DNA from: Rhodospirillaceae bacterium
GTDB taxonomy: Bacteria; Pseudomonadota; Alphaproteobacteria; Rhodospirillales; Rhodospirillaceae
Length of the DNA stretch: 64,000 bases
Assembly: GCA_002737725.1 (NCBI GenBank)
Contig: NSIP01000002.1
Span: 124,001-188,000, forward strand
Direction: 5' to 3'
Positions within the stretch are counted from its first letter, which is position 1, and each line of letters begins with the position of its first letter. The notes below the pieces were generated by a model. The model searched no databases and had not been told where the DNA came from. It worked only from the letters and a program-made list of their open reading frames with translations. Below are positions 2,684 through 45,162 of this stretch, in pieces. Made by a program: the position numbers and the translations under genes.

Positions 2684-4387
2684 TTAGTCCAAAGCCGCAA
2701 GAAATGCGCTGGCACGATCTTCGACTTTGGGCGGACGTACGAGCGTTGCGCCCGATTTAAGTTTCTTGGCTGCGTGCTCGGCTTGGGCGTAGCGTGCATC
2801 CTCGCTGACGGTACAAACCATCGTGGGCGCAGTTACGGCTAGCAACAAGGCTGCCACATCAATCTCAAGCGCGGCCAGAATGGGCTCAGCGTAATGATCC
2901 CATTGTTTCAGGGTATCAACCACCCGACCATGCAATCGCGGCCCACCCATGCGCGGTTTTATTTTACGAATGGCTTGCGCGGCGCCATCGTACCAAGGCC
3001 ACTGTGCTTCTTGGTCCCGGATCATGTGGAAACATTTATGCAAATGTCCGCCCTCGCGCGAAGGGCGCAGATCGGGGCAATAGTTAATCCGCATTTCGGT
3101 GCGTTGATCGGCGTCGGCCACCATCACGGCATCAAGAATGAGTTTATTCACCAGTGCCGCGTGCGAGGCCGCAAAGCACACGGCATGGGCCGTGCTCATG
3201 CCCTCGGCAATCACGTCCACTTGACCCAAGCCCAATGATTCAACCACGCGCGCGATGGTGTCGGCGTAGGTTTGCGGCGTGGGTTGCGATAGCGGACTTG
3301 ATTCACAACATCCCGGCAGATCAATGCCATACACAGGGCGATCTTGCGCTAAGGCCAGCAAAAGATGTTCGTCTTGGCGGGCTGAGCCGGGGAGATCTGG
3401 CAAAAATATAATCGGGCGTTTGGATCCGCTACCCGCGCGTCGCACTAACACCTGGCCTTGCGGGAAGTTGACGTAGCTGTTGGTCGTGCGACCGATGAGG
3501 GCCGGTTGCTTTAAGGGATCGGGCGGCGTGAAGTTTGCCGCACCCTTGAAGTCGGCGTACTCGTTAAATATTTCGCGCAGCCGTGTTTTCCATTTGTCAC
3601 GATCAGGCGCCAGGCTTTCTTTTGTCACGCCGTCCGGCAGTGGATTGGGCAGTGCAGATAAATAGCTATGGAGAACGTCGTCTTGCCGCGCCATTACTAT
3701 AGTTCGCGCTTTCAAAGTTTTGATCACAGGTAGTGCCACATAGCGCATCGCGCCCGCATAGGCGTCGGAGAAGTGCGGCCCCGCCATGAACAAATCCAAG
3801 CTGTACTCGTGAAGCGCGCCCATGTCTTTGCCGTGGGTAGGCTGCCGCCCCTCCTTGGTTTTTGCAAACCACGGAAACCAGCGCTGGAAGTCGAGCACAC
3901 GGGTCCACTCTTCTGCCAAGTGCCCACCGGAATCACTCACAACAAAAGGCTTCATGTAACTGGCAATGAAAGCTGGGTCGGCACCGCCGGGGGGCAACGA
4001 CAACCCGTCTAAGATGGCAACGGCTACGCGTTCAGGGTGTTTAGCCGCAAACGCCAAAGTGATTTTGGAACTGGTGTGAAATCCATAAACAGGGCAGCGC
4101 TGAACGCCGAAAGCGCCAATCGTTTCAGCTAAGGCTGTACCGAAATCGGGGATTTCAAGTTGCCGACCATGATCGAGCGGTGTGGAATTACCGTACCCAG
4201 GTGTATCAATCGCGATCACGGTGAACTGATCAGCGAATTCTTTGAGCAGTGGGATATGCAACACCGAGGAGCGCGGCGAATCGTGCAGCAGAATGATCGG
4301 TGGTCCCGACCCCGCCATGCGGTAATGAACCTGACCGTTGCCGACGTTGACGAAGCCTTTTTTAATGGTCGCGTCCTTGGCTGCCAT
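2684..4387 (-). CDS. Fused tandem alpha/beta hydrolase (two domains, one with an atypical nucleophile)
   Basis: At 567 aa this is about twice the usual size of the family and contains two complete alpha/beta hydrolase modules. Module 1 (about 14-280) opens with VHYRMAGSGPPIILLHDSP and has the DTPGYGNS turn. Module 2 (about 305-567) opens with VLVRRAGSG and has the IDLPGCCES turn. At the nucleophile elbow module 2 has EGMSTAH with Ser398. Module 1 has YGFHTSSK, placing His104 where the family has serine. So module 2 may be catalytic while module 1 is atypical or structural. No signal peptide is seen, so it is probably cytoplasmic. It sits between the bicupin and TRAP receptor genes in the same orientation. 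The substrate is unknown. Confidence 0.88.
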   Translation of the reverse strand: MAAKDATIKKGFVNVGNGQVHYRMAGSGPPIILLHDSPRSSVLHIPLLKEFADQFTVIAIDTPGYGNSTPLDHGRQLEIPDFGTALAETIGAFGVQRCPVYGFHTSSKITLAFAAKHPERVAVAILDGLSLPPGGADPAFIASYMKPFVVSDSGGHLAEEWTRVLDFQRWFPWFAKTKEGRQPTHGKDMGALHEYSLDLFMAGPHFSDAYAGAMRYVALPVIKTLKARTIVMARQDDVLHSYLSALPNPLPDGVTKESLAPDRDKWKTRLREIFNEYADFKGAANFTPPDPLKQPALIGRTTNSYVNFPQGQVLVRRAGSGSKRPIIFLPDLPGSARQDEHLLLALAQDRPVYGIDLPGCCESSPLSQPTPQTYADTIARVVESLGLGQVDVIAEGMSTAHAVCFAASHAALVNKLILDAVMVADADQRTEMRINYCPDLRPSREGGHLHKCFHMIRDQEAQWPWYDGAAQAIRKIKPRMGGPRLHGRVVDTLKQWDHYAEPILAALEIDVAALLLAVTAPTMVCTVSEDARYAQAEHAAKKLKSGATLVRPPKVEDRASAFLAALD

Positions 4388-4463
4388 ACACCCTCCGAAA
4401 CAATATGATCGCGCGGTACCCTAGCGGGCGCGCATCGCTTTCGCGACTCTATAATCGGCTGGG

Positions 4464-5321
4464 CTAATAGGGCAAAGCCGTATCGTAAGGCGCGGTTGCC
4501 AAGGGCTGTAGCTGAGGGGGTAGAATGGGGTTATGGGCGGGGGCCCAATCAATCGGAGTCTCGGACTCTGACCAGACTGTTGTCAGCGGGCCACCTTTGC
4601 AGCGAAACAGGCCAAACAACCCTTTGAGCGTGCCCACGGGCCCATGTTCGATGTTCGCAGGACGCCAGAAATATGCGCCTGGCTTCAACGTGCCCATGGG
4701 CATGGAAATCTCGCCGTCTAACAGGAACACTTCTTCAACAACCGGGTGCGTTTCAGTGCGACCATGAGTCATCTTCTTGGGGTTATCAGGTCCAAATTGC
4801 AGCAACCAGGTGCGCTCGCCGGTCTTGGGGTCTTCGCGCAGCAGTTTTCGCCCGGCATTGTTGGCGATGGCCGCGACTACCGGATCGCTGGGTTGACCCC
4901 AGCTCATTTTTTCGCTCTCGATTTTGGCGATCAATCGCGCTGGGTCGTAAAGCCCTACAGGCGCGTCACCCAAAATGGTGCGATGTTCGCCCTCATGGAA
5001 CGTTATCACGCTGGCGCCCTTTGGGCTATTCATGCTTGGGCGTGGCATACCTGCAGGCAAGTGAGCATAGTCACCTTTGCAATATTCTACGCTGCCAACC
5101 CAGAGCGCGCCGTTGAGCACGTAGAGCTCTTCATCGCTATTGAGGTAATGGGACTCAGGCAGGCTCCAGCCTGGGGGATATTTCATAATGACACTGACGG
5201 CCTTGCTGTCGGCATCGTACGACAGCGCCTTTGCTAAAGCTCCCGGACGTGACGAGTCTTCACCGAGCGTTTTCCAGGGCAACACTTGTGTTTGAATAAA
5301 CTCAATGTGTGGGCGCGCCAT
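4464..5321 (-). CDS. Two-domain cupin protein
   Basis: A longer reading frame extends to 5387, but the ATG at 5321 (MARPHIEFIQTQVLPW) is one base after the stop of the preceding gene and is the likely start, giving 285 aa. Cupin module 1 lies around residues 35-110, with LPESHYLNSDEELYVLNG carrying the first metal motif (His and Glu) and LPAGMPRPS near the second. Module 2, about 165-260, has HPVVEEVFLLDGE and FWRPANIEHGPVG. The layout resembles ChrR-type or dioxygenase-like bicupins. It may be a metal-dependent dioxygenase or isomerase acting with the monooxygenase and VOC proteins upstream, but no substrate can be inferred. It ends with TAG. Confidence 0.85.
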   Translation of the reverse strand: MARPHIEFIQTQVLPWKTLGEDSSRPGALAKALSYDADSKAVSVIMKYPPGWSLPESHYLNSDEELYVLNGALWVGSVEYCKGDYAHLPAGMPRPSMNSPKGASVITFHEGEHRTILGDAPVGLYDPARLIAKIESEKMSWGQPSDPVVAAIANNAGRKLLREDPKTGERTWLLQFGPDNPKKMTHGRTETHPVVEEVFLLDGEISMPMGTLKPGAYFWRPANIEHGPVGTLKGLFGLFRCKGGPLTTVWSESETPIDWAPAHNPILPPQLQPLATAPYDTALPY

Positions 5322-33220: not shown

Positions 33221-34243
33221 ATGCACAACATACAAGTTCAACTGGCGAAACAGCCCGACGGTAATCCCAAGGCGTCTGATTTTCAGGTCGTAAAAACTGA
33301 TATCCCGAAGGTGGCCGACGGGCAATTTTTGGCACGCAATATTTACCTTTCCCTCGATCCTTACATGCGCGGCGCGATCGCCGGGCGGCATATGGGCCAT
33401 CAGCGCTTGAATCAAGGTGATGTGATTTATGGGCGGTGTGTTGCCGAGGTCATGGAGTCCAAACACAAAGACTACAAAGCTGGTGATCATGTGGTGCTCG
33501 AGGCGGGCTGGCAGCAGTTCTATGTCTCAGGGGGCGAAGCGGCTGACGAGATTCGTAAAATTGATGCCAGCATCGCTCCGCTGTCAGCTAACATCGGCGC
33601 GCTCGGCATGCCGGGGCTCACCGGCTGGGCGGGTGTCGAGAAGCTCGCTAATCCAGCTTTGGGATCGACATTTGTTGTCAGCGCCGCTGCTGGCCCGGTG
33701 GGCGGCACGGCGGGGCAAATCGCCAAAGCCAAAGGGTGTCGCGCTGTGGGCATCGCAGGCTCGGATGAAAAATGCCGGATTGTGGTGAACGAGTACGGCT
33801 TCGATGCCTGCGTGAACTACAAGAATAAAAACTGGGCCGATGAGCTGAAGGCGGCCTGCCCCAACGGTGTCGATACCTACTTTGACAATGTCGGCGGCCC
33901 GATGCTCGACACGATCACCCAACAGCTCAATCTTTACGGCAAGATTATCATGTGCGGGTTGGTGTCGCAGTATAACCGCGCCACGGATGGCGCATTTCAT
34001 GGCCACAATATGGGACCCTTCGTTGGCAAACGCGCGCAGTTGCTGGGTCTTGTGGTCTATGACTACTACGCCAAGATGAATGAATTTATGAAAGCCGCCG
34101 TGCCATTGGTGAATGCGGGAAAACTGAAATTTCACGAAGACCGTGCGGAGGGTATCGAGAAGGCGCCCGATCATTTCGTCAAACTGATGAACGGGCAGAA
34201 CAACGGTAAAGCGTTGGTGATTATCGCGCCGGAGAAGGCTTAA
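33221..34243 (+). CDS. NADP-dependent medium-chain reductase, copy 1
   Basis: The 340 aa zinc-independent MDR protein resembles curcumin/prostaglandin-type reductases. Marks are the ARNIYLSLDPYMRGAIAGR segment, LGMPGLTGWAGVEKLA, the nucleotide loop VSAAAGPVGGTAGQIAKAKG and YFDNVGGPMLDTITQQL. These enzymes reduce alkenal or enone double bonds with NADPH. It is 10 bp upstream of a close paralogue, with which it shares most motifs, so the two arose by tandem duplication and are probably co-transcribed. Confidence 0.92.
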   Translation: MHNIQVQLAKQPDGNPKASDFQVVKTDIPKVADGQFLARNIYLSLDPYMRGAIAGRHMGHQRLNQGDVIYGRCVAEVMESKHKDYKAGDHVVLEAGWQQFYVSGGEAADEIRKIDASIAPLSANIGALGMPGLTGWAGVEKLANPALGSTFVVSAAAGPVGGTAGQIAKAKGCRAVGIAGSDEKCRIVVNEYGFDACVNYKNKNWADELKAACPNGVDTYFDNVGGPMLDTITQQLNLYGKIIMCGLVSQYNRATDGAFHGHNMGPFVGKRAQLLGLVVYDYYAKMNEFMKAAVPLVNAGKLKFHEDRAEGIEKAPDHFVKLMNGQNNGKALVIIAPEKA

Positions 34244-34253
34244 GGAGTTTGGC

Positions 34254-35273
34254 TTGAATCTACCCAATCGCAACGCTCAGGTTCGATTGCGTCGCCAACG
34301 CGATGGCTTGCCCGACGCTGGAGATTTTCAAATGGGCGACGGCCCCGTGCCCGAGCCGGGCGACGGTGAGTTTTTAGTTCGCACGATTTATCTGTCGCTT
34401 GATCCCTATATTCGCAAAGCGATTCGTGGCGATCATCCAGGACACGCGGTGCTCAGTGCTGGCGATGTGATCTATGGCCGTGCTGTCGCACGCGTTGTGA
34501 AAAGCCGTCATGCCGGTGTCAAACAGGGCGACTACATGGTTGCTGAAACCGGCTGGCAAAGTTATGCGGTTCTCACGCCCAAAAAAATTGTTCAGCGCAT
34601 CGACCCCGCGATGGGCCCGCTCTCAACCGCCATCGGCGTGCTGGGTATGCCGGGGCTCACAGCGTGGGGCAGCATAGCCCATCTCGCGCCGCCGACAGTG
34701 GGTGACACGTATGTTGTGTCTGCCGCGGCTGGCCCTGTGGGCGGCACGGTTGGGCAGTTGGCCAAGATCGCGGGCGCGCGTGTTGTCGGCATCGCCGGCG
34801 GGAAAGAGAAATGCGACGTCGCTTTGCGTACCTATGGGTTTGACGCTTGCATTGACTATAAAAAAGACGGCTGGGAACAGGCACTCCAACTGGCGTGCCC
34901 GAATGGCATCGATATTTATCACGACAACGTCGGCGCACCGTTACTGATGAAGCTGGTGGCCTACTTTAATCTCTATGCCAAAGTGGTCATGTGTGGACGG
35001 CCTGGTGATTATCACTCGGGTGAGTTCGGTGGTTTAAGCCCGGGGCCCTTCATCGGCAAGCGCGCGCAACTGCGTGGCCTTGTGGTGTATGACTATGAAA
35101 AGGATTTACCCAGGTACCTGCGTGTCGCCTCTACGCTACTGCGCGAAGGTCGCCTACGGTTTAAAGAAGATCATGCCGATGGCATCGAGGACACGCCTGG
35201 GCATTTTCTAAAACTGATGCGCGGCGAGAATGTCGGCAAGGCGATTGTCGCCGTGGGCCCTGAGAAGGGGTAG
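34254..35273 (+). CDS. NADP-dependent medium-chain reductase, copy 2
   Basis: The 339 aa paralogue of the previous gene starts at TTG 34254, supported by an AAGGAG six bases upstream. Motifs are VRTIYLSLDPYIRKAIRGDH, LGMPGLTAWGSIAHLA, VSAAAGPVGGTVGQLAKIAG and YHDNVGAPLLMKLVAYF. Function as for copy 1, with probable change of substrate range. Its stop codon TAG (35271-35273) is formed by the first three bases of a palindromic repeat element that follows. Confidence 0.92.
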   Translation: MNLPNRNAQVRLRRQRDGLPDAGDFQMGDGPVPEPGDGEFLVRTIYLSLDPYIRKAIRGDHPGHAVLSAGDVIYGRAVARVVKSRHAGVKQGDYMVAETGWQSYAVLTPKKIVQRIDPAMGPLSTAIGVLGMPGLTAWGSIAHLAPPTVGDTYVVSAAAGPVGGTVGQLAKIAGARVVGIAGGKEKCDVALRTYGFDACIDYKKDGWEQALQLACPNGIDIYHDNVGAPLLMKLVAYFNLYAKVVMCGRPGDYHSGEFGGLSPGPFIGKRAQLRGLVVYDYEKDLPRYLRVASTLLREGRLRFKEDHADGIEDTPGHFLKLMRGENVGKAIVAVGPEKG

Positions 35274-35349
35274 TAGAGCAGATTTGAGATTCGCCACTCT
35301 TATCGCGGCTGATCTGAGTAGCGATTGTCAAATCCAAAGTTCCACTACA
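35271..35349. repeat. Palindromic repeat element, copy A
   Basis: A 77 bp core beginning TAGTAGAGCAGATTTGAGAT and ending AAATCCAAAGTTCCACTA aligns without gaps to the element at 44976-45052 at about 61 of 77 positions. Its ends are inverted repeats of each other (TAGTGGA-type termini, then GGATCTGACATTCGC-type inner arms). The first three bases are the stop codon of the reductase gene. It lies 18 bp from copy C. Confidence 0.72.
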
Positions 35350-35366
35350 AACCTACATTTGCTTGT

Positions 35367-35437
35367 AGTCATCATGATTCTAACATTCGCAAGTTCGCAG
35401 TCCGAAATGGGATGCGAATGTTAGAATTGGACCACTA
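35367..35437. repeat. Palindromic repeat element, diverged copy C
   Basis: Starts TAGTCATCATGATTCTAAC and ends with GCGAATGTTAGAATTGGACC followed by ACTA. A perfect 15 bp inverted repeat (35378-35392 with 35413-35427) forms the stem. The arms share ACATTCGC and the terminal CCACTA with copies A and B. Its last three bases, read on the minus strand, are the TAG stop codon of the 66 aa gene. Confidence 0.65.
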
Positions 35438-35635
35438 GGGCCTCCCATCATCCCGCAGCAAATCCTGAATATAGCGCGCCATAGCCTCGCGCATATCAGG
35501 GTCATCGATGGCTTTGCTAAATTTTTTACGCAAGGCTTTGACTTTCTTTACGCCGCGTTCCACGTCGATGTCATCAAGTGAGCGCAAAGGTTGTTCGGGT
35601 GTTGGTTTTTGCGCTGGCGGTATTGGCTTGGCCAC
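35435..35635 (-). CDS. Small charged protein, unknown function
   Basis: A 66 aa product from the GTG at 35635, eight bases after the stop of the DedA-like gene. It has a proline-rich start (AKPIPPAQKPTPEQP) and a helical charged C-terminal part (VERGVKKVKALRKKFSKAID, MREAMARYIQDLLRDD). No family is recognised and there is no membrane segment. Its TAG stop is supplied by repeat copy C. Close spacing to the upstream gene supports translation. Confidence 0.55.
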   Translation of the reverse strand: MAKPIPPAQKPTPEQPLRSLDDIDVERGVKKVKALRKKFSKAIDDPDMREAMARYIQDLLRDDGRP

Positions 35636-44975: not shown

Positions 44976-45052
44976 TAGTGGAGCGGATCTGATATTCACT
45001 ATCCTAGTCGCGGCGGAACTGATAAGCGAATGTCAGATCCAAAGTTCCACTA
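44976..45052. repeat. Palindromic repeat element, copy B
   Basis: A 77 bp element starting TAGTGGAGCGGATCTGATAT and ending CAGATCCAAAGTTCCACTA. The ends are inverted (TAGTGGA with TCCACTA, GGATCTGATATTCAC against the complement of GCGAATGTCAGATCC). It aligns gap-free with copy A. It lies in the divergent intergenic region between the FkbM and EamA genes and would fold as a long imperfect hairpin. Confidence 0.72.
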
Positions 45053-45162
45053 AACATTTTAAGTCTCGTGTGGTTTTTTGATTAGAATTTCCTATAAGTG
45101 CGCGCAGCGAAATCCTAGGAACTTCAAATCCACCACATGAGTGAAACACCGCACAAAGCGCC

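Follow-up and report, generated by a model that had tools for sequence, protein, structure and literature searches.

How can one repeat stand in the stop codons of two genes at once? In the window analysed here, a 64,000-nucleotide stretch of a Rhodospirillaceae bacterium genome, a zinc-type oxidoreductase (reductase) gene on the plus strand (34254-35273; Pfam ADH_N_2 and ADH_zinc_N) and a 66-amino-acid gene on the minus strand (35435-35635; no match in a Pfam search) converge on a palindromic repeat, and each ends in one of its terminal feet. The stops are where an earlier note, made from the sequence alone, had placed them: TAG at 35271-35273 for the reductase frame, and a TAG whose complement is 35435-35437 for the small one. 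That note proposed a family of 77-bp REP- or MITE-like palindromes that inserts at or next to stop codons, or that has replaced the original gene ends. The reductase gene adjoins a paralogous oxidoreductase gene (33221-34243; 53% identity), and the two stand side by side in all four congeners.

The repeats at this site are two halves of a single element. The palindrome beside the small gene (copy C) had been taken for a diverged copy of the one beside the reductase (copy A). A-type and C-type halves instead adjoin in the same order at 17 aligned places in the genome, about 20 nt apart in the earlier coordinates, so 35271-35438 is one element. On the plus strand, it consists of a first, A-type hairpin (35271-35347), a 14-nt linker (35348-35361) and a second, C-type hairpin (35362-35438), with flanking target bases included; the second hairpin carries the perfect 15-bp stem (35377-35391 paired with 35413-35427) and the CCACTA end already described for it. 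This copy, C12:159271-159438 in the genome, is one of 17 from which we built a covariance model, and it matches the model over positions 1-168 with 172.6 bits.

The window holds a second full element at 44976-45141 (plus strand, 108.2 bits over model positions 1-168), which is absent from its site in four congeners. Its A-type hairpin (44976-45052) is the note's copy B, and the reported match to copy A is real: 79% identity over 77 bp (E 7.6e-13), the same 79% as the 61 of 77 positions first counted. Copy B is not a 77-bp repeat on its own, however; as read from the sequence, a 12-nt spacer and a diverged second hairpin at about 45065-45141 complete the element. This second hairpin differs in sequence type from the window's other second hairpin and resembles, by eye, one half of a divergent element (L104) in congener G002; modules seem to have been mixed. 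When six strands of copies A, B and C were folded, each gave a better fold than any of 200 shuffles (z −4.4 to −6.6).

These elements belong to a multicopy mobile family that reaches well past the window, as the note had supposed. By covariance model, the genome carries 18 full-length copies (the 17 model copies and copy B) plus fragments and hybrids; with both strands counted, the A half as query returns 27 matches and the C half 51. A pattern scan of GTDB genomes that demanded a perfect first-hairpin core found at least 119 stretches, with 80 loci among the matches listed. From the matches listed we delimited 81 elements and retained the 69 that passed our filters; these are 164-170 bp long under a length selection that allowed 160-172 bp.

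The family is nearly constant in length. Each unit of about 167-168 bp comprises an A-type hairpin, a linker of 12-14 nt and a C-type hairpin, and among the 69 listed elements the linker measures 13 nt in 48 and 12-14 nt in 68. Within each hairpin an outer arm pairs with an inner arm, which faces the linker and has extra bases between foot and stem. This inner-arm bulge spans 1-5 nt in the best one-sided fits to the 83 first hairpins listed (3 or 4 nt in 71), and a bulge-free fit was permitted but never best; the fitting scheme did not provide for bulges on both sides at once, and a few of the fits are poor. The same extra inner-arm bases are seen in the alignment of the second hairpin. In three copies from our genome (L008, L017 and L020) the second hairpin's outer arm has been rewritten to the inner-arm sequence, a pattern that copying of one arm from its partner would leave. 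A 133-bp variant with tiny loops (L348) shows that the loops can shrink. The divergent element L104 (G002:C6:45054-45221) is a full two-hairpin element with the same inner-arm bulge in a quite different sequence, which suggests deeper subfamilies.

Congeners without the element reveal where the genes ended before it arrived. The reductase ends in GPEKG in our genome and in all four congeners, none of which has the element at this site. In congener G004, whose reductase protein is 86% identical to ours, the empty site reads GGCTAGTTC: the stops of the reductase and the small gene overlap in one CTAG, and the homologous small protein encoded there ends at the residue matching the 66-amino-acid gene. 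By eye, the small gene of G002 also has the matching end residue, with a stop apart from that of the reductase; in G001 the small gene is shorter, and in G003 the sequence at this place is a different one. An M24 peptidase gene beside copy L060 ends at the same residue in all four congeners, which lack the element there, and an MFS gene beside copy L069 ends at the same position in three of the four and one residue earlier in G003. For the gene beside copy L059, no match was found in the congeners. Judged from these alignments, the stops of all three genes (reductase, M24 peptidase and MFS) are older than the element, since congeners without it end the same genes at the same residue.

Four site comparisons are compatible with insertion at the TA of a YTAR target, mostly CTAG, with TA left at both ends. 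Besides the reductase site, the peptidase site reads TTCTAG-TT-ATG in G004 and TTCTAG[element]CTAG-CC-ATG in our genome. At the MFS site, G004 has TTAG where our genome has TTAG[element]CTAA, with equal spacing on both flanks; the MFS stop is TAA in G004 and TAG in our genome. A uracil-DNA glycosylase gene has copy L057 immediately behind its start codon; the copy's joined flanks are in frame and, with TA counted once, the distance to a conserved LKGP equals that in G004, on which this site leans because the length of the glycosylase N-terminus differs in G003 and perhaps in G002. Across the copies at large the evidence is weaker and in part speaks against a duplicated TA: only 9 of the 17 own copies compared have identical end dinucleotides, and as direct repeats the two ends agree barely more than shuffles do.

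The family is probably a non-autonomous, MITE-like element in which a 12-14 nt linker connects two imperfect hairpins, and which inserts at the TA of YTAR and carries TA at both ends. The window element would have landed in a CTAG where the stops of two convergent genes overlapped, as they still do in G004. One target TA would then be 35271-35272, the first two bases of the reductase's TAG, and the other 35436-35437, the first two bases, on the minus strand, of the small gene's TAG. Going by the relatives' empty sites, the element proper would be the 163 bp from 35273 to 35435 (plus strand), beginning with G and ending with C. Each junction would thereby re-form TAG from the target's TA and the element's terminal base, so that both genes kept their stops, and both stops would stay at their ancestral positions. 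Duplication of TA would be the mechanism of insertion, and the arms of a hairpin could stay complementary through correction of one against its partner.

The apparent preference for stop codons looks like a by-product of the CTAG/YTAR target. Elements often do sit exactly on stops, as the note had claimed: the stop ends at the foot's fourth base at 12 of 53 flanking gene 3′ ends at the loci among the matches listed, and a stop lies in a foot at 5 of 17 gene 3′ ends in our genome (or of 18 when a gene lying 1.2 kb away from copy L065 is included). No preference for stops is needed to explain this, because CTAG is rare in genes and common at stops. Outside elements, the window contains 44 CTAG against about 245 expected from base composition. 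In the 80 loci among the matches listed, 238 CTAG lie outside elements: 99 inside genes, 40 on stops and 99 elsewhere. Stop codons thus make up 40 of the 139 sites outside gene interiors, and about 29% of insertions by a CTAG-targeting element barred from gene interiors would be expected to fall on a stop. Among the matches listed, with edge cases dropped, no more than 12 of 59 elements (20%) bear the 12 gene ends.

Both hairpins covary strongly. Under a hand-drawn four-helix structure on the alignment of the 69 listed elements, 97.0% of cells are paired (88.1 in shuffles), both sides change at 31 of 49 pairs (17.6 in shuffles) and double changes fill 275 cells (54.6 in shuffles); with the partner shifted by 1-3 columns, 23-42% of cells pair. 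Helix 2 is perfect by construction, owing to the perfect first-hairpin core that the scan demanded, and the foot helices took part in selecting 69 of the 81 elements. Helix 4, which is free of selection, has double changes at 12 of 14 pairs.

The feet follow the hairpins to which they belong. At each of the four arm ends the foot is most often CTAG (46, 45, 47 and 51 of the 69 listed elements), and the G at the fourth position of the left foot and the C at the first position of the right end are nearly fixed and look like element bases. Each hairpin's feet agree with their own inner arm at 251 of 276 letters, against 217.5 and 222.7 after shuffling, a level that 0 of 2000 shuffles reach. Compared as direct repeats, the left foot and right end agree only slightly beyond the shuffles, at 227 of 276 letters against 220.6, which 31 of 2000 shuffles reach. 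Feet other than CTAG are mirrored exactly in the inner arm in 10 of 23 cases for the first hairpin and 6 of 18 for the second. It follows that variants such as CTCG...CGAG originate inside single hairpins and that the TAG is not maintained for use as a stop.

Other explanations account for parts of this evidence. If the element had shortened abutting genes or given them new 3′ ends, the latter being the note's alternative, the foot TAG would be the stop of many such genes, which it is. We nevertheless consider this highly improbable: the end residue is the same in 11 of 12 gene-by-congener comparisons at three genes (reductase four of four, M24 peptidase four of four, MFS three of four), the twelfth being one residue shorter, and the congeners compared lack the element there. 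It is also improbable that the element is kept for a function in RNA, as a two-sided terminator or a stabiliser of mRNA 3′ ends between genes. The strong stem covariation would suit such a role, and 5 of the 18 own copies are called between convergent genes, or 4 if L065, where our home-made gene caller set aside a downstream plus-strand gene, is corrected. But 8 own copies are called between tandem and 5 between divergent genes, and listed elements elsewhere are mostly tandem (41 of 69, with 9 divergent, 6 convergent, 1 inside a gene, 2 unresolved and 10 too near the locus edge). One-sided changes that keep a pair fill only 42 cells (table sum) against the 275 with double changes, a contrast that a DNA palindrome with arms corrected together would fit better than an RNA constraint. 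The window has no Rfam match at gathering level, and sub-threshold miRNA matches to one copy were taken as chance. A third candidate is an IS5- or IS701-like DDE transposase that duplicates the whole 4-bp YTAR. These groups prefer YTAR targets; CTAG is whole at both ends of the peptidase site, and it is the commonest outer foot (46 and 51 of the 69 listed). The MFS site, however, has TTAG on the left and CTAA on the right, which is no 4-bp direct repeat, and the near-fixed G and C look like element rather than target bases. DDE_Tnp_1 occurs in only three of the six carriers among the 61 genomes searched, and the single match in our own genome is a remnant with no element arms around it and no matching ends, so we regard this reading as unlikely. 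The remnant, a broken gene at about 4119-4748 of locus L369, lies near a sequence that looks by eye like a tRNA.

The note had suggested looking for a RayT/TnpA-REP transposase with matching hairpins, and a REP- or BIME-type element moved as single-stranded DNA by a hairpin-recognising RAYT (Y1 transposase) would account for hairpins that come in inverted pairs and are bulged on one side. In its favour, too, no target duplication is seen beyond the feet (no direct repeat in excess for k of 1-6 in the 69 listed elements), and Y1_Tnp is present in four of the six carriers among the 61 genomes. Yet Y1_Tnp has no match in our own genome, which has the most element matches (38) in the relatives search, and none in G004. 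A stem scan of 15 of the 30 Y1 loci, including all five in carriers, found other stems or none, and the foot is a paired CTAG rather than an unpaired GTAG tag. This makes a RAYT origin quite unlikely. In G002, a Y1 gene lies 5 kb from the divergent element and has no A-type core beside it (L370), the cores being found only at the element.

For the MITE-like element that we favour, the mobilising enzyme may be an IS630/Tc1-like DDE transposase acting in trans, a suggestion that we make with low confidence. We lean towards it because IS630-family elements duplicate a 2-bp TA, according to passages of the ISY100 paper (PMC2170065), and because the title of Tenzen and Ohtsubo (1991), as cited there, reports a preference of IS630 for the TA in 5′-CTAG-3′. 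The present element would share this target and the family's TA duplication; IS630 itself differs in being an autonomous insertion sequence, and DDE_3, the IS630-type domain, has no match in any of the six element-bearing genomes among the 61, our own included. No autonomous copy with a gene between the hairpins was seen in the 83 first hairpins listed. No family of open reading frames beside the hairpins recurs in more than 5 of the 80 loci among the matches listed; none is transposase-like, and the most recurrent look by eye like host genes.

Among described repeats, the family most resembles a known alphaproteobacterial class. The Caulobacter CcrM-associated intergenic repeats (CIR; Chen and Shapiro 2003) are presented, in the section of a review that treats them, as a pair of long inverted repeats with a linker between them, about 110 bp in total, with TA termini, GANTC at or in the terminal loop and intergenic positions in Caulobacter and Brucella (Delihas 2007, PMC2229807); part of PMC10969869 describes them as well. 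The same section of the 2007 review called the mechanism of their mobility open (PMC2229807). Our family likewise has two stem-loops joined by a linker, has TA at its termini (CTAG being the commonest foot) and is intergenic and repeated in Alphaproteobacteria. It differs in length, at about 167 bp (164-170 among the matches listed), and in the place of GANTC, which lies in the stem of the second hairpin rather than in the terminal loop: the 69 listed elements have 54 occurrences in the inner arm and 50 in the outer arm, and only 7 have one in or at the loop, against 9.7 for shuffled loops. Compared by description rather than with CIR sequences, the family appears to be a CIR-like variant and not a proven CIR. 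Six 15-mers of the element had no occurrence in the literature searched, the scope of which excludes the 2003 CIR paper.

Two other groups of repeats share some of these traits. RUP (linked to IS630-Spn1) and Correia/NEMIS appear in passages of the same review as small TA-terminal repeats that fold into stems, and other such elements there form one stem-loop by pairing of their 5′ and 3′ ends (PMC2229807). Like these TA-inserting MITEs, the present family is small, repeated, TA-terminal and stem-forming; unlike them, it has a hairpin of its own at each end, and no insertion sequence with matching ends was found for it. REP sequences with RAYT (GTAG) and the alphaproteobacterial CGTC repeats are, in the relevant portion of PMC3733652, units 20-40 bp long whose GTAG or CGTC motifs are unpaired, the CGTC repeats being given there as without an associated transposase. 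Our elements share with them the form of extragenic palindromes in paired units, but the units measure about 77 bp, the CTAG foot is paired and the two-unit length is nearly fixed.

A bolder reading, which we hold to be doubtful, casts the elements as a class-wide alphaproteobacterial family of two-hairpin units, almost fixed in length, whose feet change together with their own inner arms and not with the opposite end, and whose ends are read as DNA hairpins, perhaps by an enzyme as yet unlinked to MITEs, with CTAG resealed so exactly that overlapping convergent stops survive. The favoured MITE-like reading supplies a concrete target-site model for repeats of a CIR-like class, namely a YTAR target, TA at either end and an element running from G to C, and it makes clear how such elements may stand on stop codons without having evolved to do so. 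The compensatory feet are also natural material for studying hairpin-templated correction of DNA, and the motifs could guide a search for the missing transposase in multi-copy genomes, such as the Bradyrhizobium and Afipia records listed.

The family occurs in many groups of Alphaproteobacteria. Five of 60 relatives carry it (three of the four congeners and two others). In a class-wide sample of 387 genomes, at least 22, our own included, have a match at E ≤ 1e-10, a lower bound with seven candidates scored per genome; the search of the 60 relatives used stricter filters. Titles assign 77 of the 80 loci among the matches listed to Alphaproteobacteria, with carriers in Bradyrhizobium, Afipia, Xanthobacteraceae, Rhodoplanes, Caulobacteraceae, Phenylobacterium, Sphingobium, Rhodospirillaceae and others; the remaining three come from metagenome-assembled genomes labelled Acidobacteria, Marinimicrobia and Betaproteobacteria. 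Three plasmid records have partial or full matches at 71-79%. Two partial copies in our own genome (L019 and L023) resemble each other in the flanking sequence on either side, which hints at duplication of a larger segment. In two Xanthobacteraceae records (L184 and L185), the first hairpin and linker lead to the CTAG of the second foot, after which both records continue with an identical foreign start, GGCCGTGTTGAC..., suggesting entry of another insertion sequence at that point.
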